55,043 bases of DNA, taken from Candidatus Abyssobacteria bacterium SURF_5 (GTDB lineage Bacteria > Abyssobacteria > SURF-5). Positions 30,482-51,630 of the stretch are shown here, one piece after another. The translations under genes and the position numbers were made by a program. Under the pieces are notes generated by a model. That model did not search any database, was not told where the DNA came from, and was given only the letters and a program-made list of their open reading frames with translations. Positions within the stretch are counted from its first letter, which is position 1. Each line of letters begins with the position of its first letter. Location: the NCBI GenBank assembly GCA_003598085.1, contig QZKU01000098.1, positions 1 to 55,043 of the forward strand, given 5' to 3'.

Positions 30482-30594
30482 ACCAAAGTCCAATAGACAC
30501 ACCTCTTCCTCTGGGGTATCATCTATTCGAACTTATCAACCGCACCGCGTCATAGCGCGTTTGCCTTCTCAAGGCGCGGTCAACAAAGGGGCCC

Positions 30595-31044: not shown

Positions 31045-31078
31045 ACAGTGAGACATCAAGGAAAGTGGAGGGACCGAA

Positions 31079-32224
31079 ATGAAGACGAGGCAAAAAACAA
31101 CCTGCCAGGAGAGAAGACGCACCTCGCATCGTTCACGTTCAACCGCGGCATGGAAGGAGTTCGCCGTCCCGAAGAGATCTGTTTCGGAAGATAGCCCTAA
31201 TTTGGGGCACCTGTCTTCCGCGGCCGGGGAGAAATTTCAATCCGTCGACGATCCCGAATCCATTGCCGAACAAATTGACGTTCTTGATCCCGATATGCTG
31301 CTCGAAGAAAGCGAGGAGGACCAGTATCTTGATGCGGAGCAGGAGAAGGATGTCCCGGAAAGGCGGACTGCAAATGAAGATATGGTCCAATATTATTTCC
31401 GCGATATCGCAAAAATTCCATTGCTCTCGGCGCAGGAAACAATAAAACTCTTCTGCGAACTCCAATCCGCTTGCAAGAACAATCAGGAAGCCGACAGATT
31501 GAGGTTGAAGCAGACCCTCGTTCTTGCCAACTTGAGGCTTGTCGTTATGCTCGCCAAGAAATTCACAAGCTGCGGACTCCCGCTCCTCGACATCATTCAG
31601 GCGGGAAACATCGGGCTTATGAGAGCAGTCGACGGGTTCGACCCCAATTTGGGCTTCAAATTCAGCACATACGCTTCCCGATGGATACTGGCTTCGATCA
31701 TCCGCATGATCTCAAACCAGGGACGCATAGTGAAGATTCCCGTAAATATCATTCCCACTCTCAGGAAAGTTGCAACGGTGAATCAAAAGCTCGAGAGAAA
31801 ACTGGGACGCCAGCCAACCAGAAGTGAAGTGGCCGAAGTCATCGGCATGGACGGCGAATACATCCGGTCCATGGATAACATGCTGAAGGTCTCGATTTCT
31901 CTCGATCAGCCCCTGGATCAGGAAAACTCGAACACCATCCTGAGTCTGATGCAAAGTGACGCCTCGGACTCATCAATTGAAAAAAAGATAGACACGAAGT
32001 TGATCCGCGAACGCATTGATGAACTTTTCAAAGATCTCGATCCGCGCGAACAGAAAGTGCTCAAGCTGCGGTATGGACTCGAAGATGGAATACAGTATAC
32101 GCAATCAGAAATCGCAAAACAGATGAATTTCTCGCGTCAGCGCGTCTCACAGCTTGAGAAGAGGGCGATCCTGCGCCTGCGCGCCTCCGGAGGGATTCAC
32201 GCTCTCAGAAGTTACCTCAATTAA
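31079..32224 (+). CDS. RNA polymerase sigma-70 family factor (group 2-like)
   Basis: A 381-aa sigma factor. A variable acidic N-terminus (1-100) is followed by region 1.2 (MVQYYFRDIAKIPLLSAQE), region 2 (LVLANLRLVVMLAKKF, DIIQAGNIGLMRAVDGFDP, FKFSTYASRWILASIIR), region 3 (RIVKIPVNIIPTLRKV) and region 4 (YGLEDGIQYTQSEIAKQMNFSRQRVSQLEKRAI). It is shorter than a housekeeping RpoD and lacks the long non-conserved insert, so it fits a stress-type or RpoS-like alternative factor. GGAGGG precedes the ATG. Closely spaced after a lone receiver and a two-component pair, suggesting a signalling cascade. The promoter set it reads is unknown. Confidence 0.9.
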   Translation: MKTRQKTTCQERRRTSHRSRSTAAWKEFAVPKRSVSEDSPNLGHLSSAAGEKFQSVDDPESIAEQIDVLDPDMLLEESEEDQYLDAEQEKDVPERRTANEDMVQYYFRDIAKIPLLSAQETIKLFCELQSACKNNQEADRLRLKQTLVLANLRLVVMLAKKFTSCGLPLLDIIQAGNIGLMRAVDGFDPNLGFKFSTYASRWILASIIRMISNQGRIVKIPVNIIPTLRKVATVNQKLERKLGRQPTRSEVAEVIGMDGEYIRSMDNMLKVSISLDQPLDQENSNTILSLMQSDASDSSIEKKIDTKLIRERIDELFKDLDPREQKVLKLRYGLEDGIQYTQSEIAKQMNFSRQRVSQLEKRAILRLRASGGIHALRSYLN

Positions 32225-32243: not shown

Positions 32244-33140
32244 CTACCTCGATCGGTGAAGCGGAGTGTCCCGCGGCAAAAGAAACGGGAGCCGGCGGTG
32301 CAGGAGCGTGATTGTGAGCGTTCTCATAGTCTGCGGCTCGCCATCAACATTTACGGGTGATTCCTCGCGGAATTCAATATCAAGGGAAGGCAGTTGTTTG
32401 TAATACACGAACCGGCCTTCAGTCTCCCCCAAATGTGATAATTCCTGCGCCACCGCTTTCAGATCTCGCAAAAGAAACTCGCGCACAAACATCACATCGA
32501 GCAGTCCATCATCGATAGAGGCTTTCGGGGCGACCTCATATCCGCCCCCCGCCTGACGGCCGTTAGCCGCTGTCAATAACAAAATGCTCTCATGTGTCCC
32601 GCCCTCCGGCATTCTGATCGTCACCTCGTACGGTTGCAGCCGGACCGCCGTGATAAAGGCCGTTATCGAGTAGGCGCCGCCGCCAACGGCTTTCTTCATC
32701 GACGACGGCGTGCGCGCAGTCACTTCGGCCCCGAATCCCGCGGTTATCGTATTAATGAAAAAGCGATCGCTTGCCTTCCCCACGTCGATCATCAGCGGCA
32801 TTCCTTCGGCAGAGAGGAGCAACGCCTCGAACGGATCCGGCGGTATCCCGCACCCTGAAGCGAAATCATTGGCAGTGCCCACCGGAAGAACGCCGACCGC
32901 GGTCTTTGGGAATTCATCCATCGTGAGAACGCCGTTGATTACCTCGCTGAGCAGGCCGTCGCCTCCGCCGGCAACCACAATTTCGATCCCGCTCCTTACT
33001 GCCTCACTCGCAAAACGAGCAGCGTCTCCGGGTTCCTGCGTGGTCTGTACCGTGAGGGAATGACCGCGTTGCCGGACGCGCTCGATCGCGTCTTTGATTG
33101 ATGCATCAGCCGCGCTTTTTCCGTGCAGTATGACCAGCAT
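32244..33140 (-). CDS. YegS/diacylglycerol kinase-family lipid kinase
   Basis: A 298-aa protein of the bacterial diacylglycerol/lipid kinase catalytic family. The ATP-binding GGGDGLLSEVINGV and the GVLPVGTANDFASGCGIP motif are intact, and the C-half carries FINTITAGFGAEVT and SIDDGLLDVMFV. These enzymes phosphorylate diacylglycerol, phosphatidylglycerol or related lipids at the inner membrane face. The start at 33140 follows GGAGGCTT directly; upstream codons lack homology. Convergent with the sigma-factor gene (19-base gap) and divergent from the QueG-like gene. Lipid substrate unknown. Confidence 0.88.
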   Translation of the reverse strand: MLVILHGKSAADASIKDAIERVRQRGHSLTVQTTQEPGDAARFASEAVRSGIEIVVAGGGDGLLSEVINGVLTMDEFPKTAVGVLPVGTANDFASGCGIPPDPFEALLLSAEGMPLMIDVGKASDRFFINTITAGFGAEVTARTPSSMKKAVGGGAYSITAFITAVRLQPYEVTIRMPEGGTHESILLLTAANGRQAGGGYEVAPKASIDDGLLDVMFVREFLLRDLKAVAQELSHLGETEGRFVYYKQLPSLDIEFREESPVNVDGEPQTMRTLTITLLHRRLPFLLPRDTPLHRSR

Positions 33141-33314
33141 AAGCCTCCGGCCACAGTTTCTAATCAACTATGTCATTCCCTATCCTTGACTGATCTTAAT
33201 CTCGGTTATATACTGCGAAAGCGGCAATTCGCGAAATCAAACGGCATCGTGAACTGCGCGCGGAAATCTCCATTGTTCGTTTTGGTGGTGCATGAGGATA
33301 GGAAAAGCATTCAG

Positions 33315-34244
33315 ATGAATCACGAAGTATGTCAGTTCCTGGAAAAATTGTTTTTGACCAATCAACTGAACCGGTTGCCGGTAGCTTACGGGGGCGATCG
33401 CATATTCGATGCGCCGCTTATCGGCGTCGCTCGCGGCGATGACCTCATCTTCGAGAAATTCAAGGAAGTAGTCGCGCCCGAACATCTCACGCCCGCCGAA
33501 ATGTGGACGGCGAGCGGCCTGCCGAATGATTCCGGCCTTGCCGCGCGCCTTCGCATTCTCTCGATCGTTTTCCCGTATGTGAGGCTCATTCGGGAGGAGG
33601 GGAGAAAAGCCGAGGCCATGCCTGCCGAAATCTACTGCGTGGGCCGGAACTATGCGAATGAATTCATGAGAGATGTGCTGAAGCAGACGAAGGAATTCTT
33701 CGAACGCCGCGGCTATCGCGCCGTGGCCGGAATCACCAGTCCCGCGTTCAAGTTGATCACAAAAAGCGATCCGATGCGCGTGTATTCGGTCTGGTCAGAG
33801 CGGCATATAGCGTTCGCGGCCGGAATGGGCACATTCAGCCTGCACGAAGGACTAATCACCGAGGCCGGCTGCAACGTCAGGATCGCTTCGGTCATCACTG
33901 ACATGCCGCTCCAAGTTACTCTGCGCAGAAGCGACGAGCCCTATGCCAACTGCCTGTATTACGCGAAGGGGACGTGCAGGGAGTGCGAGAAGCGGTGCCC
34001 CGCTGATGGCGCCATAACCGAAGCGGGTCATAACAAGTTCCCGTGCTGGGCTTTTGGGCGCGTCATCGAGAAGGAAATGACGGAGCGCCTCCAACCGATC
34101 CTCAAACCGCATCATCGCAGAGTCAATGATGCGGATACCTACTCATACCCGGTCGGCTGCGCGTTCTGCCAGTTCGGTGTCCCCTGCATGGACAGAAATC
34201 CCATGGCCGCCGCGCAGAGGAAGGAGATCGAGACGGGCCCGTAG
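33315..34244 (+). CDS. epoxyqueuosine-reductase-like 4Fe-4S protein
   Basis: A 309-aa protein whose centre resembles the QueG fold (FAAGMGTFSLHEGLITEAGCNVRIASVITDMPL). It continues into an Fe-S module with Cys arranged C-x7-C-x2-C-x3-C (NCLYYAKGTCRECEKRCPADG) and further Cys in NKFPCWAFG and GCAFCQFGVPC, enough for two [4Fe-4S] clusters. True QueG also has a cobalamin site and HEAT repeats, which are not apparent, so tRNA queuosine synthesis is not assured. QueG-like/reductive-dehalogenase-like proteins of this size are common in anaerobes. I chose ATG 33315 because the frame upstream to 33123 overlaps the divergent lipid-kinase gene. Confidence 0.75.
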   Translation: MNHEVCQFLEKLFLTNQLNRLPVAYGGDRIFDAPLIGVARGDDLIFEKFKEVVAPEHLTPAEMWTASGLPNDSGLAARLRILSIVFPYVRLIREEGRKAEAMPAEIYCVGRNYANEFMRDVLKQTKEFFERRGYRAVAGITSPAFKLITKSDPMRVYSVWSERHIAFAAGMGTFSLHEGLITEAGCNVRIASVITDMPLQVTLRRSDEPYANCLYYAKGTCRECEKRCPADGAITEAGHNKFPCWAFGRVIEKEMTERLQPILKPHHRRVNDADTYSYPVGCAFCQFGVPCMDRNPMAAAQRKEIETGP

Positions 34245-34349
34245 CTTTTTTTTCGAGACCGCGTCATCCAACCCTTCTTTATTTGCCCGATCCCTGTCCT
34301 GCCCCGCGGGTTCTGCTCTTCTCTTGCCCGTCCTGCCGAACATGCGCGA

Positions 34350-36002
34350 TCACCGCAAAATGCCGACTACAGGCTCGACGTCGGCAAACGCCCACGCGCG
34401 CTCGAAGCGCTCCCGGACCCGGGCGGCATCCTCAGTCTTTCCCTGGCGGCGCAGGCTTTCCGCAAGACCATACAAGGACCAACCGTTCTCGGGATTCCGG
34501 CGCAGGTCCTCCCGGTAAACCCGCTCTGCGTCAGCCGGACGGCCCGCCTCGAGCAGGACCGCTCCCAGCGATTGTCTTACGGGATAATACCAATCGGGCG
34601 GCTCGATGTAGGTTTGCTCATCTTCCGATCGGACGGCCGCCTGCAGGTGCTGAATGGCGCTCTCGTGGTCCCCGGCAGTGGCCGCGAGCTCACCGGTCAG
34701 GACTTCAGATGCGATACCAAGAATTGAGCCGACAGTATTCACGTCCCACACCTTTTGTTTCATTACAACCGGATTTGCCGCTATCGTATCGAGTTGCTCC
34801 AACTCAGCGGCGGCCTTTTCCGACTGCCCCTTCGCAATGAAAGCCATCCCCCGCGCATAATGCCATACCCCGACGGAATACAGGAGGTCGTCCGCGGGTT
34901 TCGATTCCGCCAGAATTTCATCCCACTTGCCAAAGCGGACGGAATTGTAGAGCGGCATGAGAGAGAAGTGCTGCATGAGCGGGCCCATCGCGGCGTGGCG
35001 AAACATTGTCTTGTCCACACGGGCTGTCTCGCGGGCCGCCTCGGTCGCAAGCGCGCTGCGTCCCTTCATAGTAGCGGCATACCAGAGGAAATGCGAATTG
35101 TGCGGCATATACGCCAGCGGATAGAGCCCCTGAGCGTGGCACTCGGCGATGTAGACCTGATCCATCGATAGCGCCCGCAAGTTCGCGAGCGATGCATCAT
35201 GGTAGCGGCCGATGCGGATGTATGTGTGTGAGGGCATGTGGGCCAAATGGCTGGTGCCCGGAACCAGTTTGCTCAGCCGATCGGCGGCCGCCTCCCCCTT
35301 CTGCGGCTCGGAGGAGGCCTCGGTGGCGTGAATATAGAAATGAAGCGCCCCCTGGTGCTCGGGCGCCCGATCCAGGACCGACTCAAGCGTCGTCAGGATT
35401 TCAGGCGTCCACGGGTGAGGAGTCCCCTCTTTGGTCCAATAGTTCCACGGGTGAAGGTCCAACAGTGATTCGGCAAAAAGCGACGCGATGTCGACGTCCT
35501 CCGGGTACCGTTTTGCAACCTCACGCATGGCGTCCGCGTACGCCGCGTCAAGCGGACTCCTGTCCTTCGGTGGAGTTTCGGCGTAACGCTTCGCGAGCGC
35601 GTTGATCAAAGCCCTCTCCTTTTCGGCGGCCTGAGGCGCCAGCTCAAGGGCCTTCTGAATCGCTTCATTCGCCTTCGGGACTGCCTCCGGCGCCATCGGC
35701 GCATTGATGTTTGGACCCAGGACAAGAGCGATTCCCCAATAACACATGGCGCAATCCGGGTCCAGCCGCGCAGCCTCCCGGAATGACCGCTCCGCCTCGG
35801 CATGATTGAATCCGTAGGAGAGGAGCAGTCCCTGGTCGAAGAACCGCTGGGCCTCGGGCGAATCCGTCGATATCGGATAATGGTGGCGTCCCATTCCCTT
35901 CAGGAGCGGCGCCAGCCTCTCGGATTCTTGTGCAAAGGCCGGCACGGCAAAACTCATCGCAAAAACGACGAGTAAAATTCGGCATATCATCTTATGCTTC
36001 AT
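34350..36002 (-). CDS. secreted TPR-repeat protein with conserved His/Cys pairs
   Basis: A 550-aa protein with a signal peptide (MKHKMICRILLVVFAMSFAV, cleavage after AFA). TPR-like helices run from FFDQGLLLSYGFNHAEAERSFREAARLDP to the C-terminal SLYGLAESLRRQGKTEDAARV. It belongs to a widespread family recognisable by DPDCAMCYWGIALVLGPNINAP. A central block has conserved His residues (ALHFYIHATEAS, HLAHMPSHTYIRIGRY, MPHNSHFLWYAA), suggesting metal binding or catalysis rather than simple scaffolding. CxxC at CAMC is not a haem motif, as no His follows. GGAGGG precedes the ATG. It stands alone. Function unknown. Confidence 0.82.
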   Translation of the reverse strand: MKHKMICRILLVVFAMSFAVPAFAQESERLAPLLKGMGRHHYPISTDSPEAQRFFDQGLLLSYGFNHAEAERSFREAARLDPDCAMCYWGIALVLGPNINAPMAPEAVPKANEAIQKALELAPQAAEKERALINALAKRYAETPPKDRSPLDAAYADAMREVAKRYPEDVDIASLFAESLLDLHPWNYWTKEGTPHPWTPEILTTLESVLDRAPEHQGALHFYIHATEASSEPQKGEAAADRLSKLVPGTSHLAHMPSHTYIRIGRYHDASLANLRALSMDQVYIAECHAQGLYPLAYMPHNSHFLWYAATMKGRSALATEAARETARVDKTMFRHAAMGPLMQHFSLMPLYNSVRFGKWDEILAESKPADDLLYSVGVWHYARGMAFIAKGQSEKAAAELEQLDTIAANPVVMKQKVWDVNTVGSILGIASEVLTGELAATAGDHESAIQHLQAAVRSEDEQTYIEPPDWYYPVRQSLGAVLLEAGRPADAERVYREDLRRNPENGWSLYGLAESLRRQGKTEDAARVRERFERAWAFADVEPVVGILR

Positions 36003-36473
36003 TTGTAATTTCCCTCCAATTTTCAATTCTTGGCCAGTGATTGCAATGCCACAGGCTCACCCAAAAACTTCACCTTATCACATAAATATGACCGACAAAT
36101 TCCCCAAAAGCCAGTTCCGCGAGTCATTCCCGATGTCTTTGGCGGGAGTGAGGCGGGACGCAACACGATGGGACACTTGTCATGTGAATGTCCTTGGCGG
36201 AAATCCGGCCACCCGGCTAAAGATGATCATACCGGAAGCAATGATGAGGCATGAAGGGATTTGCAACCAAACCGGTGAAGCCATCACCAAAAACCCCAAT
36301 GCATGTTCCCGGGGAATTGTACATTGACCTCAATTTTGGTAGGCTATGTGTATTACGCAGTCACTGCTGTCAAAGATAATTCCTATATGGTCTATTCACG
36401 TAATTCGTCGAATTCAAGCAATTCGTGTTCCATCTGTTTGTAAGACATTTGTGGTCAAGGAGGAAAAAGATCG
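36003..36473. other. intergenic stretch, no supportable gene
   Basis: About 470 bases. Two overlapping plus-strand frames (36030-36254 and 36037-36327) have no ribosome site and no recognisable protein features. The last 60 bases hold the leader and AGGAGG site of the ThDP enzyme. No repeats were noted. Confidence 0.5.
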
Positions 36474-38120
36474 ATGGCAATGGTTTCAGGTGGAATTCTC
36501 GCAGCAAGGATGCTCAAAGCCGAAGGTGTAGATTATATATTCAGTCTGGTGGGAGGACACATTTACGCTCTTTATGACGCGTGCCGGGATGCCGGGATAA
36601 AAATTGTGGATGTCCGCCACGAAGAGGCGGCGGCCCACATGGCGGAAGGCTTTTCTTTGGTCACGGGAAAGCCGGGCGTATGTGTCGTCACGGCGGGACC
36701 GGGATTCACGAATATGATAACAGGTGTGGCCGCCGCCGCCGTCGCCAATAGCCCCATTATCTGCCTGGCCGGCCACAGCGGCATTCGCGAATATGATACA
36801 GGAGCGCTTCAGGACCTCAATCAGATCGACATTATCAAGCCCCTGACCAAGCTCTCGCGTACCGTTTACCAGACCGAGCGCATTCCGGAATATATGGCAA
36901 TGGCCTTTCGTCATTGTCTCGCGGGCCGGCCGGGACCGGTCTACCTGGAGATCCCGCTCGATGTCTTCTACAATCAGGTGGATGAATCCGGTGTGGAGAT
37001 GCCTGAGCGCTACAGAACGCAAACGCGCCCGGCCGGCGACCCTGCCGAAATTGAGAAAGCGCTGGCTTTGCTCCAACAGGCGAAGAGGCCGCTCGTGGTG
37101 GCCGGCAGTGGAGTATGGTGGTCTCAGGCCCACAAAGAGCTTCAGGCATTCGTCGAAAAATCCGGAATCCCCGCCTTCACGCGCAACAACGGCCGGGGCG
37201 CCATATCGGACAAACACCCGCTGTGCTTCGGCGTTTCAGCGCTGGCCGGTTTGTTCAAAGCGGATGTCGCTTTGATCATAGGCACTCAACTCAATAACAC
37301 ATTGGCGTACGGAAAATTCCCGCCGGAACTCAAGGTCATCCAGGTGGACATAGAGCCCTCGGTCATCGGGCATAATCGCGCAATCGACGTCGGCATCATC
37401 GGTGACGCGAAGAACGTACTTCGCCAGCTTACAGATGGCATTGAACAACGCTCATATGACGTATGGGTCGAAACCCTGCGGCAGGCGAAGGCCAAGCGCG
37501 CCGAGCGAAATCGGCCGTTCATGGAATCCGATAAAATTCCGATTCACCCTCTGAGGCTGTGCCGCGAGTTGACGAACTTCATCGATGAGGACACCATTGT
37601 CTGCATAGATGGCGGAGATATCTCCGTCTTTGGAAGCATGGTGCTGCCGGCCTGCACGCCCGCCCAGCATCTTGCCAACGGCGCCTCCAGCTTTGGCTGC
37701 CTCGGTGTCGGGCTTCCCTATGGGCTCGCGGCGAAACTGGCCAGGCCGGAGAAGAAAGTGCTTGTGCTTTGCGGAGACGGCAGCTTCGGATTCAACGCGA
37801 TGGAATTCGATACCGCTCTCCGGCATAACCTGCCGATTGTCTGCGTTATCGGCAATGACGGATGCTGGGGCATGATGAGACATGGGGCGGAAGCAGTCGT
37901 CGGGGCCGACCGCATTGTGGGTTGTGATTTGCCGCTTCGAAAGTATCACAAGGTCGTCGAGGCGCTCGGCGGGCACGGCGAATTGGTGGAACGTCCGTCG
38001 GACATCAGGCCGGCGATAGAGCGCGCATTCGCCTCTGGCAAGCCCGCGTGCGTCAATGTGCTGACCGACATAAAAGTGAGCCCGCAAAAACCAGCCGGCG
38101 ATGCAGAGTTTGGGGCATGA
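36474..38120 (+). CDS. thiamine-diphosphate-dependent enzyme (acetolactate synthase/2-hydroxyacyl-CoA lyase type)
   Basis: A 548-aa ThDP enzyme with all three domains: Pyr domain (catalytic Glu50 in VRHEEAAAHMAEG), central domain (PLVVAGSGVWWSQ, ALIIGTQLNNTLAYGKFPP) and PP domain with GDGSFGFNAMEF...GNDGCWG for Mg/ThDP. The second Asn of the usual NN pair is Asp. It resembles acetolactate synthase large subunits, oxalyl-CoA decarboxylases and 2-hydroxyacyl-CoA lyases, which sequence alone does not separate. No ilvN regulatory subunit follows, which argues against branched-chain synthesis. AGGAGG precedes the ATG. Monocistronic. Confidence 0.85.
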   Translation: MAMVSGGILAARMLKAEGVDYIFSLVGGHIYALYDACRDAGIKIVDVRHEEAAAHMAEGFSLVTGKPGVCVVTAGPGFTNMITGVAAAAVANSPIICLAGHSGIREYDTGALQDLNQIDIIKPLTKLSRTVYQTERIPEYMAMAFRHCLAGRPGPVYLEIPLDVFYNQVDESGVEMPERYRTQTRPAGDPAEIEKALALLQQAKRPLVVAGSGVWWSQAHKELQAFVEKSGIPAFTRNNGRGAISDKHPLCFGVSALAGLFKADVALIIGTQLNNTLAYGKFPPELKVIQVDIEPSVIGHNRAIDVGIIGDAKNVLRQLTDGIEQRSYDVWVETLRQAKAKRAERNRPFMESDKIPIHPLRLCRELTNFIDEDTIVCIDGGDISVFGSMVLPACTPAQHLANGASSFGCLGVGLPYGLAAKLARPEKKVLVLCGDGSFGFNAMEFDTALRHNLPIVCVIGNDGCWGMMRHGAEAVVGADRIVGCDLPLRKYHKVVEALGGHGELVERPSDIRPAIERAFASGKPACVNVLTDIKVSPQKPAGDAEFGA

Positions 38121-38932
38121 CACCCCGAAACGGCCGGAAACAAGAATATTGAACCGCCCGACCATGCCTGTCACGCGCTTCCCATGATCACGCCCTTCGC
38201 GTGAAGTCTCTCTTCATCCCCTCGCCCGTCTCTTTGTCACTCTGAGCGAAGGCGAAGAATCTCTCTCTTCTTCAAATCCAAAGATTAACAATCCTTAATG
38301 GCCTTTTCCTAAGGCCTAATGCCTCCAGTCTAAAGCGTGCTGTTCCGAGCCTAACGTCTCCGGGCCAAAAGCCTGCCTTCCCGGCGTCCGGATGAAGAAG
38401 TGCTTCCAGATTATAAAGCAATGTCTTAACATCGGCTACTAAGCGAAAAGCAGAGATGCGACCCCATCGGATTATCAATTGGATTTGCGCTCGCGTCGTA
38501 AGCCGCGTTCTCTCAATTGTGTTTTCGTTCCTTTTGTGATATATTGATAAGCAGGAAAGCGAATTGTCTCAGAGACCTTCCATTTCAGCCATCCATCACT
38601 TTCCGCAGTTCATCCCGTACCGGCGCCGCCTTCAGGACGCAGGAAAGGGCAGCAAATTGAAAGAGTGCATTTCATTCTGGAGTACTCCCCCTGGAGCAGG
38701 CAAATATATGCTCCACTTCTCGCCTAACGGCGAGCGCCACTCTATTCTCAGTTACAGCAAAACTTCTTTTCAGCGCCGCATTCATATCTTTTATTAACCT
38801 TGCCCGGCGAGGTTGGCAAATGGGATGTTCTGTCCTCGCCTTCACGATGCAAGAAGACCTGATTGCAAGAAAAGGGAGCCGCGGACCGAGATGCTCTGGT
38901 TCGAGTCGCGGCCTTACAAAGGAGGTGGCGCC
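38121..38932. other. long intergenic stretch before a receiver gene
   Basis: About 810 bases. At 38233-38266 lies GTCACTCTGAGCGAAGGCG with AAGAATCTCTC following, a widely dispersed bacterial intergenic motif. At 38290-38390 there is a run of degenerate GGCCTAA / GCCTAACG / GGCCAAAAGCCT units. A possible extended -10 (TGTGATATATT) occurs near 38535, and a short hairpin CTCGCC-TAA-CGGCGAG-like near 38717. The frames at 38564-38797 and 38672-39145 show no protein-like features. Confidence 0.5.
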
Positions 38933-39343
38933 GTGTTGCTTGAGGACGAAAGAAAAAGAATACTCATCGCCGATGATAACAAGGATCTCCTGACTCTCAT
39001 GCAGTCGATTCTCGAATTCGCGGGATTCCTGGTCCAAACGGCGGAAGATGGCGAGGAGGCACTGGATCAAGTCAAGAAGGTCCACTATGATCTGCTGGTC
39101 CTGGGTGTCGTCATGCCGAGAGTTGACGGCATCAAGCTTTTGCAACTGGTGAGAACCCGCAAAGAATACGCCTCAGTCCCAATTATCTTCATTACCTGCT
39201 CGAGCTGGAAACAGGGGACGAAACACCCGAGAGAAATGTCCTGCAAGTTGGAAGGATTCAGAAAGCCCTTCAAGAACAAGGCGTTCCTCAAGATGGTGAC
39301 GGCGCTCCTCGGCAGTGAACAGGAAGAGGCGCGCTATAATTAG
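38933..39343 (+). CDS. receiver-domain protein lacking the phosphoacceptor Asp
   Basis: A 136-aa receiver fold. The acidic pocket (ILIADDNKD), the switch Ser/Thr region (IFITCSS) and the conserved Lys (GFRKPFKN) are present, but the phosphoacceptor position reads LLVLGVVMPRVDG, with Gly where Asp is expected. The codon is GGT. It therefore cannot be phosphorylated in the usual way and may be a constitutive or ligand-sensing pseudo-receiver. I chose GTG 38933 because AAAGGAGG lies 7 nt before it; the frame is open upstream to 38813 without homology. A 172-aa unknown protein is encoded 32 bases downstream and may be its partner. Confidence 0.85.
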   Translation: MLLEDERKRILIADDNKDLLTLMQSILEFAGFLVQTAEDGEEALDQVKKVHYDLLVLGVVMPRVDGIKLLQLVRTRKEYASVPIIFITCSSWKQGTKHPREMSCKLEGFRKPFKNKAFLKMVTALLGSEQEEARYN

Positions 39344-39375
39344 TGGCGTCATCCGGAAAGACTTGAGAGAGCCTT

Positions 39376-39894
39376 ATGAGATTCTTCAAATGGCGGCACA
39401 AGCCGCCTGCGAAAAGGAAAAAAGAAGAGACCACCCCTGTCACGCCAGCCATGCCCGACTTCAAAATGTTGTTTCTTTCACTGCCTGATATAGTCAAACC
39501 AACCACCGTGCCAACCGAAGATGCAACGGCTGCCGCTCCTTCTTCCAAAGCGCGCGTCGCCGCCGCCAGATGCTCGGCCGAAAGCGAAGCTAAGGCGGCA
39601 ACCTCCAGAGAAAAGGTAAACATGGTTCACGCCAGAATTCAAACGGCTATCCAGAAACACAAGGAAATTGTCTGGCTTCTTCAAGCAGACAAAGAGATTC
39701 TCCACGGATCATTGAACGATCTGTTCAAGAGTCTCCGGAACCTGGAAAATAGCAATTCCTGCAAAGGAATATCCGTGAATTATGTTTCCGACGGGAAATT
39801 GCGTGAGATTTCGCCGCTGACCGAGCAGGACCTCGCAGGGCTGGCCCGAAAATGTGAAACGGAAAAGAGTCAGGGACGAATATCCTCCCAATAG
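39376..39894 (+). CDS. hypothetical protein, Ala-rich linker plus helical C-half
   Basis: 172 aa, family not recognised. The N-terminus is strongly basic (MRFFKWRHKPPAKRKKEE), followed by a Pro/Ala/Thr-rich low-complexity linker (about 20-75). A helical, possibly coiled-coil segment (about 75-125, ...REKVNMVHARIQTAIQKHKEIVWLLQADKEIL) follows, then a short C-terminal domain with EISPLTEQDLAGLARKCE. No signal peptide or membrane helix. Only a weak GAGAG ribosome site precedes the ATG. Closely follows the Asp-less receiver gene on the same strand, so joint expression is likely. Confidence 0.55.
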   Translation: MRFFKWRHKPPAKRKKEETTPVTPAMPDFKMLFLSLPDIVKPTTVPTEDATAAAPSSKARVAAARCSAESEAKAATSREKVNMVHARIQTAIQKHKEIVWLLQADKEILHGSLNDLFKSLRNLENSNSCKGISVNYVSDGKLREISPLTEQDLAGLARKCETEKSQGRISSQ

Positions 39895-40104
39895 AGAGAA
39901 CGGCTAAAACGTTGGTTAGAGACGACTGATGAGGCGTTCCCTTGCGCCGCTCACGGCGTTCGTCACGATAGTGAGAGCCCCGCTGAGCTCGAATGTGAAC
40001 GCGACGGAGGAATGCGGCCGCACAGCCTTCCACGCCTCTATTATTTGTCTCTTGTCTTACCTGTAGACTGTGGACCGTGAACGGACTCTGGACGAGCAAC
40101 TGAC

Positions 40105-41547
40105 TTACAACCGGCAGGATCTCTTCCACTGCTGAAAACGTTCTTCCCGCTGGGAGGCGTTCCAGCGAGGCTCGAAGATTCGGTCTGTTGTGCGAAGGGT
40201 GCTCGTTGACCACGGTTCCCACAGGCCGCACGACTCGCCTGCCAGCAGCGCGGCTCCGTATGCGGTGGCTTCCAGCGGCTGTATTCGTTCCACCGGCAAT
40301 CCGAAAACGTCAGCATGTTGCTGCATCAGGAAATCGTTAGCCGCGGCGCCGCCATCCACCCTCAAAGAACTCGGCTTCGGCAAACCGGCATCAAGATAAA
40401 TCCGCTCGACCATTTCCTTCACCCGAAACGAAACCCCCTCTATCGCCGCTCGCACGAGGTGGGCCGCTGTGGCGCCCAGATAGAGCCCGCCGAACGTGCC
40501 ACGCCGTTCGGGAACAATGTGCGGAGTGCCGAGTCCCTGGAGACTCGGCAAAAAGAAGACTCCGTTGCTGTCGGCGACGCTTGCGGCGACGGCCGACGCC
40601 TGCGCCGGATTTTCGAGCAATCCCAACTGCGTCAGCCAACTGAAGACCGCGCCTGCGGTAATCACCATGCCTTCAACGCAGTAGGGACGATGCTCGCCGC
40701 GCCGCCATAAAACCAGCGGATATGAGCCCGAGGCCATTTTCAATTCTTCGCCGGTATTGACATCGCAGGTGGCCGATGTGCCGAACGTAATCTTTCCATC
40801 GCCCTTGGAGAGGCACCCCTGCGCATACGCCGCGCTCTGCTGATCGCCGATGATAGCCCCGATCATGACCTCCGCTCCGAAAGCCCGGCGCGAGGTGAAG
40901 CCAAGTTGTCCCGCCGAATCCACGATGCGAGGGAAGAACTTGATGTCAAGTCCCTGGATTTTCAGGAGGTCGCTCTGCCACTCCCATTTCTCCATGTAAT
41001 CATAGTAGCCGGTCGCAACGGCATTGGTCAGATCGGTAATGTGAACGGCGCCGCCGCTCAGCCGCCACGCGAGGAAACTGTCAACGTTGCCCCACGCAAG
41101 CTCGTTTCGCCGCATCCTCTCAAAACCGTCCGGAATGGCTCTTAAAATCTGTTCCATTTTTGCCGCCGGAGTAACCGAAGCGGCTGTAATGAATCCAAGG
41201 TCCTGAAGCTCGACGGCGCGCGCCGCGCCCCGTTGATCCTGCCAGCTTACGGCGGGGGAGAGGGGGCGTCCGGTGGCCCGCTCCCAGACAATGGTCGTGG
41301 AGCGCTGGCCGGTAATTCCGATTGCGCTGAGGTCGCCCACTCTGATGCCCACTCTTTCAAGCGCCTGATGTATCGTCTTCTCAGCGACCAACCACATCTC
41401 CTCCGGGTCCTGCTCCACATATCCGGCCGCCGGGAAACTACGCTTGAACTGGTTTGCGCACACGCTGAGGACGCGGCCGTCGTCTCCTACGACCATGCTT
41501 CTGACACTCGTGGTGCCCGCGTCGATTGAGAGGACCGATTTACTCAT
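40105..41547 (-). CDS. glpK: FGGY-family carbohydrate kinase, glycerol-kinase-like
   Basis: A 480-aa FGGY kinase. The N-domain has SIDAGTTSVRSMVV (phosphate loop) and GITGQRSTTIVWERATG with SWQDQRG, close to the glycerol-binding GITNQRET...WQDRR pattern of GlpK. The C-domain has the FGTSATCDVN loop and RVDGGAAANDFLMQQHADVFGLPVER. It would phosphorylate glycerol to glycerol 3-phosphate. It is the last gene of a minus-strand set (glpD, AGPS-like, this gene), and its ATG overlaps the upstream stop codon by 8 bases, indicating translational coupling. Slightly shorter than E. coli GlpK. Another polyol cannot be excluded, but the glpD neighbour supports glycerol. Confidence 0.82.
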   Translation of the reverse strand: MSKSVLSIDAGTTSVRSMVVGDDGRVLSVCANQFKRSFPAAGYVEQDPEEMWLVAEKTIHQALERVGIRVGDLSAIGITGQRSTTIVWERATGRPLSPAVSWQDQRGAARAVELQDLGFITAASVTPAAKMEQILRAIPDGFERMRRNELAWGNVDSFLAWRLSGGAVHITDLTNAVATGYYDYMEKWEWQSDLLKIQGLDIKFFPRIVDSAGQLGFTSRRAFGAEVMIGAIIGDQQSAAYAQGCLSKGDGKITFGTSATCDVNTGEELKMASGSYPLVLWRRGEHRPYCVEGMVITAGAVFSWLTQLGLLENPAQASAVAASVADSNGVFFLPSLQGLGTPHIVPERRGTFGGLYLGATAAHLVRAAIEGVSFRVKEMVERIYLDAGLPKPSSLRVDGGAAANDFLMQQHADVFGLPVERIQPLEATAYGAALLAGESCGLWEPWSTSTLRTTDRIFEPRWNASQREERFQQWKRSCRL

Positions 41548-42946
41548 TCGGTATCAATACCCCCGGATTCATGAAGTTCGTCGGATCGAGAGCATGTTTG
41601 ATGCTGCGGAGAAGCTCGACGCCCGTCGCGCCCAATTCGCGCCGCATCCAATCGCGCCGCAGCCGGCCGATGCCGTGGTGATGCGATATTCCGCCGCCGT
41701 TCGCGGCCGTCGCTTCCAATGTTCTCCGCCAGCACTCTTCGTAGGTGCGCGCCATGTCTTTCGAATCGTCCGGCCGAGCCGCAAAAGTAAAATAAAGGTT
41801 GATGCCCGAGCGGTAGGCGTGGGAACTGTGAGCCGATGCATTGAGGATGTTCTCAACTTCGCTGAGCGAGGCCACAACATCCCGATAAATAGGACGGATC
41901 CGATCCCACGTTGCGGCAATCTCAATCGTGTCCAGAATGACGCCCTTCTTCAAGAAGCTCTCAAAGGTCGGCACCTCGTTCCGCTCCGCCATCCATTTCT
42001 CGCCTGCCGCCACAGGACCGGCTTCGCCATGCGCCTCCGCAGCCAGCGCGGCGCATGCCGCCTTCTCAGTTTCGACTCTCGCGGCCGGCCCTTCGTGCAC
42101 AAGCAACAATAATGCGCCGTCCCCTTTGGCCTGATCCGGAAACAGGCGCCACGCTTCCGACGTGTCATACTGCCGCATCACCGGCGGAGTCCATCCCGAC
42201 TGAATGATGGCGCGTTGAAGATCAAAACCGGCATCCATATTGGGCAAATAATACACGCTGTAATCCCGTTTCTCGGGTTGCCATCGCACGGAGAAAGTGA
42301 CGGATGTGATGACGCCTAACGTTCCCTCGCTGCCGAGAAACAACTGGCGCAGATCGGGTCCGGTCGAGGCTCGCGGAGTCAATCGTGTTTCCAAAACTTT
42401 TCCGTTCGGCAAGACCACTTCGAGACCCAGCAGGATATCTTCGATGTTGCCGTAGGCGGTCGAGAACTGGCCCGCGGAGCGCGTGGCCACCCATCCGCCG
42501 ACCGAGCTCACATCCATTGACTGAGGATAATGGCCGAGCATCAAGCCCCGCTTGGCAAGCGCCGCCTCGGCGTCAGCCCCTCGAAGGCCGGCCTCAAAAG
42601 TTGCGAGCAGATTGTCGACGTCGATCCGGAGAACCCGATTCATGGAACTCATATCCAGAAGAACGGTGGCGGGATCAACCTTTATTCCGCCGCACACGCC
42701 CGAACCGAGCCCAAACGGCACGAGCGGCGTCGAGGTCTCGCGGCAGGCGTTGACGACGCTTATAACATCTTTTGTTTCAGTCGGCTGAACAATGCATGCC
42801 GGCCGCGGCGCCCCGCGATCCTGCAGGTCCTCGAGTTGGCTCAACACCCAGTAATCATGCCTCCGGTCGTTGAGCAACTGCGAGTTGGTGATAACTTTTC
42901 CCGCGCCCACTTCCTGTTTCAGTTTCTCGATAATAGATGATGGCAT
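41540..42946 (-). CDS. FAD-binding oxidase, alkyl-DHAP synthase (AGPS)-like
   Basis: A 468-aa VAO-fold flavoprotein. The FAD_binding_4 domain (about 45-225) includes VPFGLGSGVCGG and SVGGWVATRSAGQFSTAYGNIEDILLG. The C-terminal cap ends GGGISHHHGIGRLRRDW...LDPTNFMNPGVLIP. The His-rich HHHGIG segment is characteristic of alkyl-dihydroxyacetonephosphate synthases, which swap an acyl for an alkyl chain on DHAP to make ether lipids; D-lactate and glycolate dehydrogenases share the fold. AAGGAGCGG precedes ATG 42946. Between glpD (11-base gap) and a glpK-like gene (8-base overlap), where DHAP chemistry makes sense. Ether-lipid synthesis is an inference. Confidence 0.82.
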   Translation of the reverse strand: MPSSIIEKLKQEVGAGKVITNSQLLNDRRHDYWVLSQLEDLQDRGAPRPACIVQPTETKDVISVVNACRETSTPLVPFGLGSGVCGGIKVDPATVLLDMSSMNRVLRIDVDNLLATFEAGLRGADAEAALAKRGLMLGHYPQSMDVSSVGGWVATRSAGQFSTAYGNIEDILLGLEVVLPNGKVLETRLTPRASTGPDLRQLFLGSEGTLGVITSVTFSVRWQPEKRDYSVYYLPNMDAGFDLQRAIIQSGWTPPVMRQYDTSEAWRLFPDQAKGDGALLLLVHEGPAARVETEKAACAALAAEAHGEAGPVAAGEKWMAERNEVPTFESFLKKGVILDTIEIAATWDRIRPIYRDVVASLSEVENILNASAHSSHAYRSGINLYFTFAARPDDSKDMARTYEECWRRTLEATAANGGGISHHHGIGRLRRDWMRRELGATGVELLRSIKHALDPTNFMNPGVLIPNE

Positions 42947-42957
42947 TTGCCGCTCCT

Positions 42958-44565
42958 TCATTGGTTCCCTGTCTCCGCACGAGCCTTCAGCTCTTCCGCA
43001 TGCAGATTTCGACATCGCTCGATCTGCCGCATCTGCTCATCTTCCGACCACCCCATCAACGCGCTCATATGCTCCGCCGCCCTAATAAGTGCGCTGGGCG
43101 GGCCGACGTCGAACCGGGCGCGAGCGCTCCGCCGGAACCAGTAGTCTTCCAGAGTCAACGCGCCTTCGCATTCCACCGCGTGCCGCACCTCGCCTGCAGG
43201 GCCGGCATCTTTCGAAGATATTTCAAGAGCCTCGGCGCCATACAGCCGGGCCGCGCGCTCCGAGTCGGCGGGATTCAAACCCAAAGACTCGAGTTGCGAG
43301 CGCAGTTTCTCCGGCCCTCCCGCGAAATCTCCGCCGGGCAGAGGCTCCTCAGCCGTCGGCGGCGGATTCGACTTTCGCTGCAGCCGTTTCTCACACAGAT
43401 TCACTACCCGCTCAGCCATCGAGCGATAACTCGTCAGCTTGCCGCCGGCAACGCTCAGCACTCCGCCGGGTCCTTCCATCGTCTCATGTCTTCGTGATAT
43501 CTCGGATGGGCTCTTTCCTTCCGCGCCTAAAAGAGGTCTCAAGCCCGCCCACGCCGAAACAACATCATTGCCAGTAAGCGGCTCAATGTCGAACATCGCG
43601 CTGGCCGGCAACAACAGATAGTCGAAATCCTCGCTCGTTATCCCGGGCCAATATTCGGCTTGAGGATAAAAAGTGTCAGTCGTACCGATATACACAAAAC
43701 AATCCCTCGGTACCGCAAAGATCGAGCGCCGGTCGGGCGTCGCCATGATAACCGTATTGTCGAGGGGCAACCGCTCGCGCCGGACAACCAGGTGGATTCC
43801 TTTCGTCAACTGGAGCTTCTTCTTCGCCGCCGCATCCTCGAGCCGTCGAATGGCGTCCACCCACGGTCCGGCGGCATTCACCACAACTCGAGCGCGCACG
43901 CGTGCCGCGTCATCCTCTCCGGGCAAAGCGGCCTGGACTATCGCCCCCGCCGCCTTTCCGCCCTCCAGCAACAGGGTCTCGACCCTGGCGTATGTGTCCA
44001 CGCAAGCGCCATGAGACGCCGCGCTGCGCGCATTGGCAAGAGTAAGTCGGAAATCGTCTGTCACATACTCAGGATACACAACGGCTCCGATCAGCTTGCC
44101 TGAACGCACGCGCGGCTCCCGCGCGTGTAATTCAGCCTGATCCCAAACTTCATGCGCCTCCTCGGGAGCGACGCCGCCCAGCTTCTCGTAGGCAACCATG
44201 GCCGCCACCATCTTCGCCTGGTCCGTCTTGCCGCGAAGCGGAATGATCATCGGCATGGTCTGAGCCAGATGAGGAGCGATTGCGCGAACGGCACGCCGTT
44301 CAACCGCGGCTTCCTTTACCACGAACAGATCGCCTTGCGCCAGATAGCGGAGGCCGCCATGAATAAGCTTCGATGACCGGCTCGATGTGCCCGCTCCGAT
44401 ATCGGCCCTGTCAACCAGCGCAACGCTCAGGCCCCGCATCGCGGCGTCCCGAGCTATGCCGCAGCCGGTAATTCCGGCCCCTATCACCAGCACATCAAAA
44501 ACCTGTTCCTCCAACCGGCCAAAACTCTTGCGCCTGTCTCTCAAATCCAAGGCATGCGTTTTCAT
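42958..44565 (-). CDS. glpD: aerobic-type glycerol-3-phosphate dehydrogenase
   Basis: A 535-aa FAD enzyme. FDVLVIGAGITGCGIARDAAMRG is followed by the GlpD hallmark DIGAGTSSRSSKLIHGGLRYL near residue 70. A further FAD and substrate contact is GGVLSVAGGKLTSYRSMAERVV near residue 345. The C-terminal helical DAO_C domain (about 385-535) is present. It oxidises glycerol 3-phosphate to DHAP at the membrane, feeding quinones. First gene of the glp/AGPS set and divergent from the TetR gene. I list ATG 44565; a GTG four codons upstream (44577) is an alternative, and neither has an ideal ribosome site. Confidence 0.9.
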   Translation of the reverse strand: MKTHALDLRDRRKSFGRLEEQVFDVLVIGAGITGCGIARDAAMRGLSVALVDRADIGAGTSSRSSKLIHGGLRYLAQGDLFVVKEAAVERRAVRAIAPHLAQTMPMIIPLRGKTDQAKMVAAMVAYEKLGGVAPEEAHEVWDQAELHAREPRVRSGKLIGAVVYPEYVTDDFRLTLANARSAASHGACVDTYARVETLLLEGGKAAGAIVQAALPGEDDAARVRARVVVNAAGPWVDAIRRLEDAAAKKKLQLTKGIHLVVRRERLPLDNTVIMATPDRRSIFAVPRDCFVYIGTTDTFYPQAEYWPGITSEDFDYLLLPASAMFDIEPLTGNDVVSAWAGLRPLLGAEGKSPSEISRRHETMEGPGGVLSVAGGKLTSYRSMAERVVNLCEKRLQRKSNPPPTAEEPLPGGDFAGGPEKLRSQLESLGLNPADSERAARLYGAEALEISSKDAGPAGEVRHAVECEGALTLEDYWFRRSARARFDVGPPSALIRAAEHMSALMGWSEDEQMRQIERCRNLHAEELKARAETGNQ

Positions 44566-44725
44566 TTTAAGGTTCACACCCTGCTATGAATCCGAACGTA
44601 AATCATTGCTCGATGCCCGGATCTTGGAGTGACAGGCGTCGAGCCACCGCGAAAACGAGTATATCATGGAATGGTGAGTTTTTATATAAAAGGCTGGATC
44701 AGCCGGCATGTATGAAAGAAACCTC

Positions 44726-44754
44726 TTGACAGACTCACAAGCGTGTGATATATA
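44726..44754 (+). promoter_or_regulatory. sigma-70 promoter of the TetR gene
   Basis: A perfect -35 TTGACA at 44726-44731, a 17-base spacer and TATATA at 44749-44754. The predicted transcript start near 44761 lies inside the 22-base palindromic operator. Confidence 0.8.
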
Positions 44755-44755
44755 T

Positions 44756-44777
44756 TAGTACCAACCGGTCAGTACTA
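44756..44777. promoter_or_regulatory. palindromic operator overlapping the TetR transcription start
   Basis: AGTACCAACCGGTCAGTACT at 44757-44776 is a palindrome (AGTAC-nn-ACCGGT-nn-GTACT), extended by T and A to 22 bases. It starts directly after the -10 box and ends 15 bases before the TetR ATG. Position and symmetry indicate autorepression by a TetR dimer. It could also reach the divergent glpD promoter, about 190 bases away, only by looping. Confidence 0.75.
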
Positions 44778-44792
44778 AAACCTTAGGAGATC

Positions 44793-45374
44793 ATGACCAG
44801 TAAAGAAAAAATACTCGAGGAAACGACGAAACTCATTCATGCCAAAGGATTTAACAATACCAGCATCCAAGATATCCTCGACGCCTCCTCCGTGAGCAAA
44901 AGCAACTTTTACTACCATTTCAAAACAAAAGAGGAACTCGGTTTCGAGGTGCTCGCCCTGCGAATACAGCAGTTTTACGATTTCGCCGTGCGGCCGGCCC
45001 TGGAAAACGATCTGAAACCGCCGGAACGGATAGACGCATTCCTCGACCGGCTCCTTGCTATCGGCCTTTCTCCTCAGGGCGAGCTCGGCTGTCCCTTCGG
45101 GAATCTTGCTCAGGAGATGAGCGCCGTCCATGAGCCGCTTCGCAAGGCATTGAGCGACTTCTTTCACGCCGGCGCCGAATTGGTCGAGCAATGTTTCGAG
45201 GAGGGGAAGCGACAGGGCGATTTCAAGGAATCACTGCCGTCAAAGCAGCTTTCGGAATTCGTTCTCGCGCAGATGCAGGGCGCGTTCCTCTTGAGAAAGA
45301 CGCACAAGGATCCGAAAGTGATCGAGCGGAATGTCTCCTTGCTGCGAGATGTTATTAAGGGTTGGAGGACTTAG
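44793..45374 (+). CDS. TetR-family transcriptional regulator
   Basis: A 193-aa repressor. The N-terminal helix-turn-helix is complete (ILEETTKLIHAKGFNNTSIQDILDASSVSKSNFYYHFKTKEEL, residues 7-48), and the ligand domain starts near 50 with a GCPFGNLAQEM segment typical of the YcdC/NemR-like branch with TetR_C_11-type ligand domains. TTAGGAG precedes the ATG. The gene has its own strong promoter with a 22-base operator. It stands between the divergent glpD operon and the Fe-S/molybdopterin cluster 205 bases downstream, so it could regulate either. The ligand is unknown. Confidence 0.92.
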   Translation: MTSKEKILEETTKLIHAKGFNNTSIQDILDASSVSKSNFYYHFKTKEELGFEVLALRIQQFYDFAVRPALENDLKPPERIDAFLDRLLAIGLSPQGELGCPFGNLAQEMSAVHEPLRKALSDFFHAGAELVEQCFEEGKRQGDFKESLPSKQLSEFVLAQMQGAFLLRKTHKDPKVIERNVSLLRDVIKGWRT

Positions 45375-45435
45375 GGTCGAAGCTCGATGTATGATTGCGC
45401 TGCAAATGCCCCTTTTTCTGATTCAATTCTGTCGT

Positions 45436-45491
45436 GGTAGGTGCGAATTTATTCGCACTTTCAAGACCGTCCGAATGAATTCGGTCCTACC
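45436..45491. repeat. palindromic repeat family B, copy 2 (inverted doublet)
   Basis: Two related palindromes face each other: GGTAG plus GTGCGAATTTATTCGCAC (core 45441-45458), then CCGAATGAATTCGG (45471-45484) plus TCCTACC. The outer GGTAG/CTACC ends are inverted, as in REPIN doublets. Lies between the TetR gene and Fe-S protein 1. Confidence 0.8.
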
Positions 45492-45578
45492 AACAGGGGG
45501 GCAGCGGAATCAAGGTTTAAAGCTCAAAATTCAAATGAAGTGAAAAGCGGACGAACGTCACACGAAGCGGAGGGTAAC

Positions 45579-46667
45579 ATGAGCAAAGACAGCTACCGGA
45601 AATTAGCGGAACATCTCGATGCAATGCCGCAGGGATTTCCAAAGACCGAGAGCGGCGTCGAGTTGAAGATCCTGAAGAAAGTGTTCACCGAGCAGGAGGC
45701 CGAGATCGCATCGCAAATGAAATTGATTCCCGAATCGGCCCAGCAAGTGGCCGAGCGGTTGGGACGCAATCCCGAAGAAATGGGGCACCTGCTCGAGACG
45801 ATGACCTCGAAGGGCCAGCTCATGGGGATGGGGCCGAAAGAATATCGCATGTACAGCGCGTTCCCGTTTCTTGTCGGAATCCACGAGTTCCAGCTTGCGC
45901 GCGTCGATAAGGAATATGCCGCGCTGTTCGAGCAATATCTCGAGGAAGCGCTTGCCGAAAAGCTGGGGCAGGTCGCGCCGTCGCAGGTGCGCGTGTATCC
46001 GGTCGAAGAGGCGATCCCGAATCAACTGAATATTCTTCCGTTCGAGAAGGTAACGAGCATGATCGAGAAGGCGCAGTCGTGGGCGATATCCGACTGCATC
46101 TGCCGAAAGGAAATGACCCTTCTCGACAAAGGCTGCGGCAAGACAATGAACAACTGCATTGCTTTCTCACCCTCCCCTGATGCGTTCGATATCGAATATC
46201 GCGGCGCCCGGAAAGCCACGAAGCAGGAAGTGCTCGATTTGTTGAAGAAAGCCGAAGAAGAGGGGCTGGTGCATAATTCCTGGAACATTCAGGACGATCA
46301 TATGTTCGTCTGCAACTGCTGTACGTGCTGCTGCGCGATTCTGCGCGGCGTCAAGATGGCGAAATCGCCGCATTTCCTGGCGAAATCGAATTATCTCGCG
46401 CAGATCGATGCGGACACTTGCGTCGCGTGCGGCGTATGCGCCGATGAACGCTGCCCGATGGGCGCCATCGAATCGCGCGGCGAATATTTTGAAGTCAACC
46501 CCGAGCGCTGCATCGGCTGCGGCGTATGCGTGGTCACGTGTCCGAGCGGCGCGCTCTCGCTCCAGCGCAAACCCGAAAGTCAGATCGATCTGCCGCCCGA
46601 AAACATGATCTCGTGGACCATGCAGAAAGCGCAGATTACCGGCCGAACAATGGAAGGACTGATCTAA
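45579..46667 (+). CDS. Cys-rich winged-helix/ferredoxin Fe-S protein 1
   Basis: A 362-aa protein. A helical, winged-helix-like N-terminal domain (1-90) is followed by a middle region with C173-x-C175...C186...C193, a CNCCTCCC cluster (C245-C252) and two [4Fe-4S] ferredoxin motifs (C281-x2-C-x2-C-x4-C292 and C311-x2-C-x2-C-x3-C321). Paralogous to Fe-S proteins 2 and 3 in the same run. The upstream Cys set is enough for at least one more cluster. GGAGGG precedes ATG 45579; the open frame extends to 45441 through repeat sequence and is not coding there. Likely transfers electrons to or from the molybdopterin subunit; soluble, no membrane helix. Confidence 0.85.
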   Translation: MSKDSYRKLAEHLDAMPQGFPKTESGVELKILKKVFTEQEAEIASQMKLIPESAQQVAERLGRNPEEMGHLLETMTSKGQLMGMGPKEYRMYSAFPFLVGIHEFQLARVDKEYAALFEQYLEEALAEKLGQVAPSQVRVYPVEEAIPNQLNILPFEKVTSMIEKAQSWAISDCICRKEMTLLDKGCGKTMNNCIAFSPSPDAFDIEYRGARKATKQEVLDLLKKAEEEGLVHNSWNIQDDHMFVCNCCTCCCAILRGVKMAKSPHFLAKSNYLAQIDADTCVACGVCADERCPMGAIESRGEYFEVNPERCIGCGVCVVTCPSGALSLQRKPESQIDLPPENMISWTMQKAQITGRTMEGLI

Positions 46668-46730
46668 TTCTGGATTTTGCGAAAGACAGTGCCCTCAAAG
46701 AGCCACCGGATGAGGAATAAGGAGGACATC

Positions 46731-47885: not shown

Positions 47886-47911
47886 GGTAGGTGCGAATTC
47901 ATTCGCACAGT
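47886..47911 (+). repeat. palindromic repeat family B, copy 3 (inside the Fe-S/Mo gene run)
   Basis: GGTAG plus the perfect palindrome GTGCGAATTCATTCGCAC (47891-47908) plus AGT. It lies between the stop of Fe-S protein 2 and the start of the molybdopterin gene. If the genes share a transcript, it forms a 9-bp hairpin there. Its GTG is in frame with the downstream gene and can mislead start prediction. Confidence 0.85.
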
Positions 47912-47977
47912 CTTCAGGAAGCTGCCGCGCATCGCGCGATAAGTTCGTTCTCTTGTCCCAAAGATGAAGGAGAGGCT

Positions 47978-51597: not shown

Positions 51598-51630
51598 TCT
51601 TTCCTTCGCGCCTGTTTTCCACCTCCGAAG

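Follow-up and report, generated by a model that had tools for sequence, protein, structure and literature searches.

A stand-alone receiver with Gly at the phosphoacceptor site and its conserved neighbouring gene in SURF_5: a candidate phosphorylation-independent pair

Introduction

What could a receiver do without the Asp residue that normally takes up phosphate, and with which protein could it do so? One locus of SURF_5, a deep-subsurface bacterium, raises this question. SURF_5 and SURF_17 are both reported as Candidatus Abyssubacteria genomes (PMC6121073). The stretch analysed here, called the window, is 55,043 nucleotides (nt) in length. On its + strand lies one stand-alone CheY-like receiver gene (38933–39343; GTG start), which encodes 136 amino acids (aa) and carries Gly58 where the phosphoacceptor Asp would be expected. 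A gene of 172 aa (39376–39894, + strand) begins 32 nt past the receiver stop; we refer to its product as the partner.

An earlier note on this DNA had offered two ideas: the genes form a phosphorylation-independent signalling pair, or the receiver is a recently disabled regulator. Our analysis favours the first. With a rough probability of 0.6, the gene encodes an aspartate-less receiver, or pseudo-receiver, that would act by contact with the product of the neighbouring gene and not by Asp phosphorylation. As far as sequence can tell, the pair idea stood: Gly is present in all three loci that carry the partner, and the two genes form a conserved unit in three neighbourhoods.

Results

Gly58 replaces the phosphoacceptor Asp in the window receiver

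The receiver is recognized by the Pfam Response_reg profile (PF00072) with 70.5 bits, against a cut-off of 30.2; residues 10–121 match positions 1–109 of the 111 in the profile. Its translation contains YDLLVLGVVMPRVDG, which spans Gly58. The Gly58 codon is GGT (39104–39106, + strand), just as the earlier note had read it, and the acidic pocket, Thr and Lys that it had described as intact are indeed in place: the window receiver keeps the pocket Asp-Asp pair (IADDN), Thr (FIT) and Lys (RKPF). In the alignment with the paralogue described below, the switch aromatic residue is located two residues before the Lys, not three, because the window receiver has one residue fewer in this segment (EGF-RKPF vs EGYIRKPF). 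The Thr is directly followed by a Cys. One AGGAGG ribosome-binding site (38920–38925, + strand) is located 7 nt upstream of the GTG codon; the paralogue is preceded by a similar site, AAGGAGG.

With Gly at the phosphoacceptor position, the window receiver falls outside the canonical single-domain response regulators. It belongs to the aspartate-less receivers or pseudo-receivers (ALR, PsR): it is recognized by PF00072 and it lacks the Asp. The absence is also kept, and is not a private mutation or error, as Gly is found in three of the four members of the receiver subfamily, from two genera, with synonymous sites close to saturation. Given the established chemistry of receivers, we infer that phosphorylation at this site was lost.

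Gly is kept in three loci of two genera

We compared three genomes of the phylum: the window genome (SURF_5, G000), SURF_17 and one genome of a third genus (G001), which is 92% complete. One relative of the window receiver is encoded in SURF_5 itself: the paralogue on contig C123 (G000:C123:209-628) is 67% identical to it and carries Gly, encoded by GGC. The SURF_17 orthologue is 55% identical and also carries Gly (GGT). In this protein, the active-site Lys is replaced by Ile and the Thr by Ser; judging from these residues, its catalytic set is largely dismantled. The G001 receiver is 49% identical to the window receiver and carries Asp (GAC). These four sequences constitute the subfamily; they score 240–253 bits, and the next sequence scores 108 bits, in a search of 386 genomes that scored no more than 10 candidates in each. 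The same Gly, which the earlier note had proposed to look for in homologues, is therefore present in the C123 paralogue and the SURF_17 orthologue, and its refuting case, in which all close homologues would have Asp, did not materialize: Asp is confined to the G001 receiver, the only one of the four without a partner.

Gly is rare at this position. Among the distinct aligned SURF_5 receivers matching the query, 82 of 86 have Asp, two have Gly (the window gene and the C123 paralogue), one has Glu and one has Asn. Among distinct receivers from other genome contigs, with SURF_17 set aside, all 74 have Asp (73 of 73 when contained rows are dropped). Both control sets were collected by their likeness to the query, with a profile threshold as the lower limit, and thus fall short of a full census. 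The Glu-bearing receiver is L024 (G000:C106:21631-21876; FDLIISEVKTP). The Asn-bearing one, L159 (G000:C105:9090-9458; DLILINTRLS), also has Ser in place of Thr.

A sequencing error or single mutation is ruled out as the source of the Gly, which occurs in three loci whose codons differ in their third bases. Wrong binning of contig C123 finds no support either. The GC contents compared are 0.552 and 0.550, and its tetranucleotide correlation to the window is 0.965, compared to 0.928 for another SURF_5 stretch and 0.890 and 0.917 for the other two genomes; this falls short of proof.

The residues around the Gly bear on whether the receiver might be phosphorylated elsewhere, at a pocket Asp or at a Thr or Ser, by some distant kinase. 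The intact Asp pair, Thr and Lys in both SURF_5 copies would fit such chemistry. However, SURF_17 has neither the Lys nor the Thr (Ser instead), yet it has kept the Gly and the partner. The pseudo-receiver FrzS, which has Ala at the site (PMC4395418), is also reported to bind neither Mg2+ nor a phosphoryl analogue, and mutation of its nearest Asp is described as giving no motility phenotype (PMC1974792). We consider phosphorylation at another residue improbable.

The partner is a real gene and is conserved together with the Gly receiver

The 172-aa open reading frame (ORF) downstream of the receiver was pointed out in the earlier note, together with its possible co-occurrence with the receiver. 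Both points stood up. The partner, or a relative of it, is located downstream of the receiver on the same strand in all three Gly loci, which represent two genera and two paralogues; the relatives at the C123 and SURF_17 loci are 49% and 40% identical to the window protein. A spurious ORF is thereby ruled out. Conversely, Gly is found in all three loci that bear the partner. The pair has been kept in three different gene neighbourhoods, so the case in which it would not be conserved does not apply. Between the two genes lie 32 nt in the window and 27 nt at the C123 locus; in SURF_17 they are 350 nt apart.

The family is confined to these loci in our data. The partner profile identified no additional copy in the three genomes of the phylum, and the profile search found the family in 2 of the 386 genomes, the same two (SURF_5 and SURF_17). 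In G001, the profile gave no match at an E-value of 0.1, and a tblastn search with the three partners against the receiver contig (G001:C30:1-14000) gave a best E-value of only 2.7. The 173 pattern matches on viral contigs included no relative, and plasmids gave no match.

We also compared all ORFs of at least 70 codons in the window with those surrounding the three other receiver loci. Only the receiver and the partner are common at these positions. The remaining matches between loci are other receivers, receiver antisense frames, genes distant from the pair and one match of 42 residues. The last one (45322–45540 vs C123, 57% identity) had looked like a common neighbour 5–6 kb downstream and was rejected; it is a dispersed DNA repeat and not a gene. 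This intergenic repeat is about 100 nt in length, and its copy at 45399–45499 of the window is 84% identical to L118:4351-4450 on contig C123. Pieces of 22–29 nt occur in the window in both orientations, with pieces located at 7222–7247, 47886–47914 and 51628–51702.

Two other genes adjoin the pair at single loci. In SURF_17 only, one 82-aa CxxC-rich ORF (L031:5440-5688) lies between receiver and partner. Each of the three genomes encodes one copy of it; those at G000:C51:32829-33056 and G001:C212:4774-5010 are 71% and 62% identical to that of SURF_17, and the protein matches no Pfam family over the cut-off. As its copies in SURF_5 and G001 lie on contigs other than those of the receivers, it was ruled out as a third member of the system and is probably a visitor at the SURF_17 locus. 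Directly after the C123 pair lies one gene for an ankyrin-repeat protein (L002:1183-1467), for which no counterpart was seen beside the window pair.

Shared inheritance might still come without contact: the two genes could be co-transcribed and inherited together while their products never touch and the partner serves something else. Adjacency implies co-expression at best, and the ORF inserted in SURF_17 indicates that the spacing is not rigid. Against this, the two genes have remained linked in three distinct neighbourhoods, two of them in one genome, and the Asp-bearing G001 receiver is without the partner. On balance, we regard such a contact-free arrangement as unlikely, and favour two products that bind each other.

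Both genes appear to be under constraint

The Gly receivers are open in frame at all three loci and share 54–66% aa identity. By the NG86 method, the nonsynonymous distance (dN) between them is 0.22–0.36 and the synonymous distance (dS) is 1.65 and 1.98, with one pair past estimation; by YN00, dS is 1.27 and 1.48 for two pairs. For the partner, NG86 gives dN of 0.40–0.56 and dS of 2.2 and 3.3, again with one pair past estimation, and YN00 gives dN of 0.43 and dS of 1.69 for one pair. Such dS values have reached or nearly reached saturation, and dN/dS ratios are therefore not quoted. The limited protein change beside nearly saturated synonymous sites fits purifying selection on both genes.

In two phylogenetic trees, both built from chosen subsets of relatives, the four subfamily receivers group together with support of 99/96 in the first and 82/85 in the second. 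All relatives outside the subfamily carry Asp in these trees; Asp is therefore the likely ancestral state of the subfamily. When the Asp/Gly column is included, the Gly receivers are grouped (87/80 in the first tree and 81/78 in the second). The identity of RpoC fragments among the three genera is 0.879–0.891, which leaves the order of the genera unsettled, and for this reason we make no claim on when the Gly arose. By these comparisons, either the Gly of the subfamily is old or it was gained on more than one occasion and then retained.

These data bear on whether the window receiver is a canonical one in the course of being lost, with the Gly disabling it and the gene drifting. Such a loss would account for the rate of the subfamily, whose inter-genus tree paths (0.53–0.83 changes per column) exceed those of the sister receivers with Asp from these three genera (0.25–0.27), as well as for the further active-site residues missing in SURF_17 and for the window copy being one residue short before the Lys. 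However, the faster change is also seen in the Asp-bearing G001 copy, and the open frames with nearly saturated synonymous sites do not look like drift. Moreover, the Gly is kept in three loci, the partner is retained, and the window gene and its paralogue have good ribosome-binding sites. A decaying receiver is thus very unlikely. The suggestion that the regulator was recently disabled does not hold, with a Gly that is old or repeatedly gained and kept and with two genes that look constrained.

The partner has a basic head and a C-terminal α/β domain

The partner is composed of one basic N-terminal head, one conserved MP[DN]FK motif, one variable linker and one C-terminal domain. The head (39376–39453, + strand) bears Trp and Phe and precedes the P[DN]FK motif. 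Before PDFK its net charge is +6 in the window protein; the values for the other two partners are +2 and +10. The earlier note was right about a basic part but wrong about its place, which is an N-terminal head and not a tail. By its composition, the head is a putative site of contact with the membrane periphery or with nucleic acid.

In the AlphaFold2 model, the C-terminal part (39607–39891, + strand) is of α/β fold, with one helix, two strands, one helix, one β hairpin and one helix. Modelled alone, the C-terminal 95 residues reach a mean predicted local distance difference test score (pLDDT) of 77.7 and a predicted template modelling score (pTM) of 0.65. The mean pLDDT of the whole-partner model is 55.3, and residues 8–69 are below 50.

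Sequence searches failed to place the partner in a known family. The best E-values against Pfam and NCBIfam were 0.015 and 0.058 over the three partners, and all matches of the window protein were under the cut-off. The best match by sequence in the PDB, a mitochondrial import protein fused to maltose-binding protein (E-value 0.02), was judged to be due to chance; the last 82 residues of the window partner gave no PDB match at an E-value of 10.

Structure searches with the C-terminal part gave candidate likenesses only. In Foldseek, ERH had the lowest E-value (0.034; probability 0.60, root mean square deviation (rmsd) 7.2); the N2 domain of PilB came next (0.055; 0.91, 3.9). ERH and PilB/GspE each took about 18–19 of the 50 rows shown, with generally higher probability and lower rmsd for PilB/GspE, and the query template modelling score was 0.39–0.44 over the PilB and GspE rows. 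VIA-align superimposed this part on N2 with a Z-score of 4.9 (3.6 Å over 65 residues at 17% identity), the same score as for Rubisco small subunits and slightly below one photosystem I row at 5.0. In the fold libraries, PilB ranks level with ERH, Rubisco small subunit and photosystem I, and none of these likenesses was accepted as a relationship. In hhalign, the match to the PilB-type N2 profile from SURF_5 was weak (P-value 0.012, probability 3.5%), with a score above 199 of 200 column shuffles; the joint profile gave a weaker match still, and the PilT-type N2 profile gave nothing.

The partner and the N2 domain of PilB/GspE have a short motif around VxYxxDGxLxE in common. Different from PilB/GspE, the partner has no ATPase domain. 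The A[ST]D-[IL]-H box is absent from the three partners and present in all seven aligned PilB-type N2 domains, which had themselves been cut out by this box. We treat the N2-like fold of the modelled C-terminal part as a lead. One reading built on it is that the two proteins would serve type IV pilus or type II secretion motors as an adaptor that works without phosphate; the partner would be a free-standing N2-like domain docking into the assembly ATPase ring, locked or localised by the Gly receiver. This is a long shot. If true, this combination of a separate, degenerate receiver and an N2-like adaptor would represent a new coupling of a pseudo-receiver to pilus or secretion motors, parallel to FrzS. 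In SURF_5, the T2SSE cut-off is exceeded at 19 places, including four consecutive ones on contig C113 (25276–29562).

Neighbourhood of the pair in the window

Nine neighbouring genes (33123–47855) were scanned. They encode one tetratricopeptide repeat protein, one thiamine-pyrophosphate enzyme, one FGGY kinase, two flavin adenine dinucleotide oxidoreductases, one TetR regulator, two 4Fe-4S proteins and one protein without any family at an E-value of 1e-5; none of the nine contains a histidine-kinase domain. Between 38121 and 40110, no promoter-like site was detected on the + strand, and the single + strand terminator-like site (38188–38204) is below chance expectation. Farther upstream, the + strand carries in a row the genes for one FixJ-like response regulator, one stand-alone receiver and one sigma-70-type factor (29849–32224).

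Discussion

Taken together, these observations suggest a working model for the pair. Without phosphate uptake at the usual site, the receiver would be fixed in one working conformation by its own sequence and would serve as a protein-docking module for the product of the adjacent gene. The partner would probably take the receiver to a cellular site via its basic, aromatic head, and could offer its small C-terminal α/β domain to an additional target. Control would come from the amount of the pair made or from ligands of the partner, instead of from a histidine kinase. That the two products bind each other and that the head directs localisation are predictions drawn from conservation and composition.

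Several points weigh against this model. The main one is that the pair is known from just three loci of two genera, which leaves few independent events behind the association; moreover, SURF_5 and SURF_17 are both reported to come from one mine sample (PMC6121073). With G001 92% complete, a partner encoded elsewhere in that genome may be missing from the assembly. In SURF_17 the two genes are separated by the CxxC-rich ORF. The pocket Asp pair, Thr and Lys of both SURF_5 copies are intact, and some active-site chemistry may remain. The subfamily, its Asp-bearing G001 copy included, has changed faster than the sister receivers. Finally, the grouping of the Gly receivers depends on the Asp/Gly column. 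When it is excluded, the first tree places SURF_17 with the Asp-bearing G001 (87/81), and the second leaves the branching order unresolved, neither recovering a single Gly clade nor rejecting it (approximately unbiased test, p 0.355). One gain of Gly, two gains, or one gain with reversion to Asp in G001 are all possible; Gly perhaps arose twice.

CheY-like single-domain response regulators are switched by Asp phosphorylation. Like these proteins, the window receiver is small, stands alone and has the Pfam receiver domain; different from them, it has no phosphoacceptor Asp. In this respect it resembles the ALR/PsR proteins, which are PF00072 receivers without the phospho-Asp. According to a 2025 review, the Asp is missing in 2.0% of bacterial receivers (3,111 of 152,269), 18 of the 20 pseudo-receivers that it discusses are orphans, and their activation mechanisms are called a mystery (PMC12632262). 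A 2015 survey gives the substitutions in aspartate-less receivers as Glu (26%), Asn (16%), Ser (15%), Gly (11%) and Ala (9%), and states that each frequent substitution except Gly has a characterised member with a structure (PMC4395418). Different from the surveyed proteins, the window receiver is of the Gly type and stands alone, with a separately encoded, conserved neighbour of an uncharacterised family. In the literature searched by title and start of abstract, we found no Gly pseudo-receiver that stands alone and has a partner gene. Aspartate-less receivers are already known; the novelty lies in the conserved partner and in the Gly type. Although the system is small and lineage-restricted, a Gly pseudo-receiver with a conserved neighbour provides a two-protein test of whether loss of the Asp accompanies the gain of a fixed binding partner, and the Asp-bearing, partner-less relative in the third genus is a natural control.

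Among characterised pseudo-receivers, FrzS provides the closest parallel that we draw. In FrzS, the receiver and the coiled-coil part are on one polypeptide. The window receiver stands alone, and the helical, α/β part is encoded by a second gene; the two are likened by the receiver fold only. In Myxococcus xanthus, the FrzS pseudo-receiver is described as acting through a partner protein, SgmX (PMC12632262), and action through a partner protein is likewise what we predict for the window receiver.
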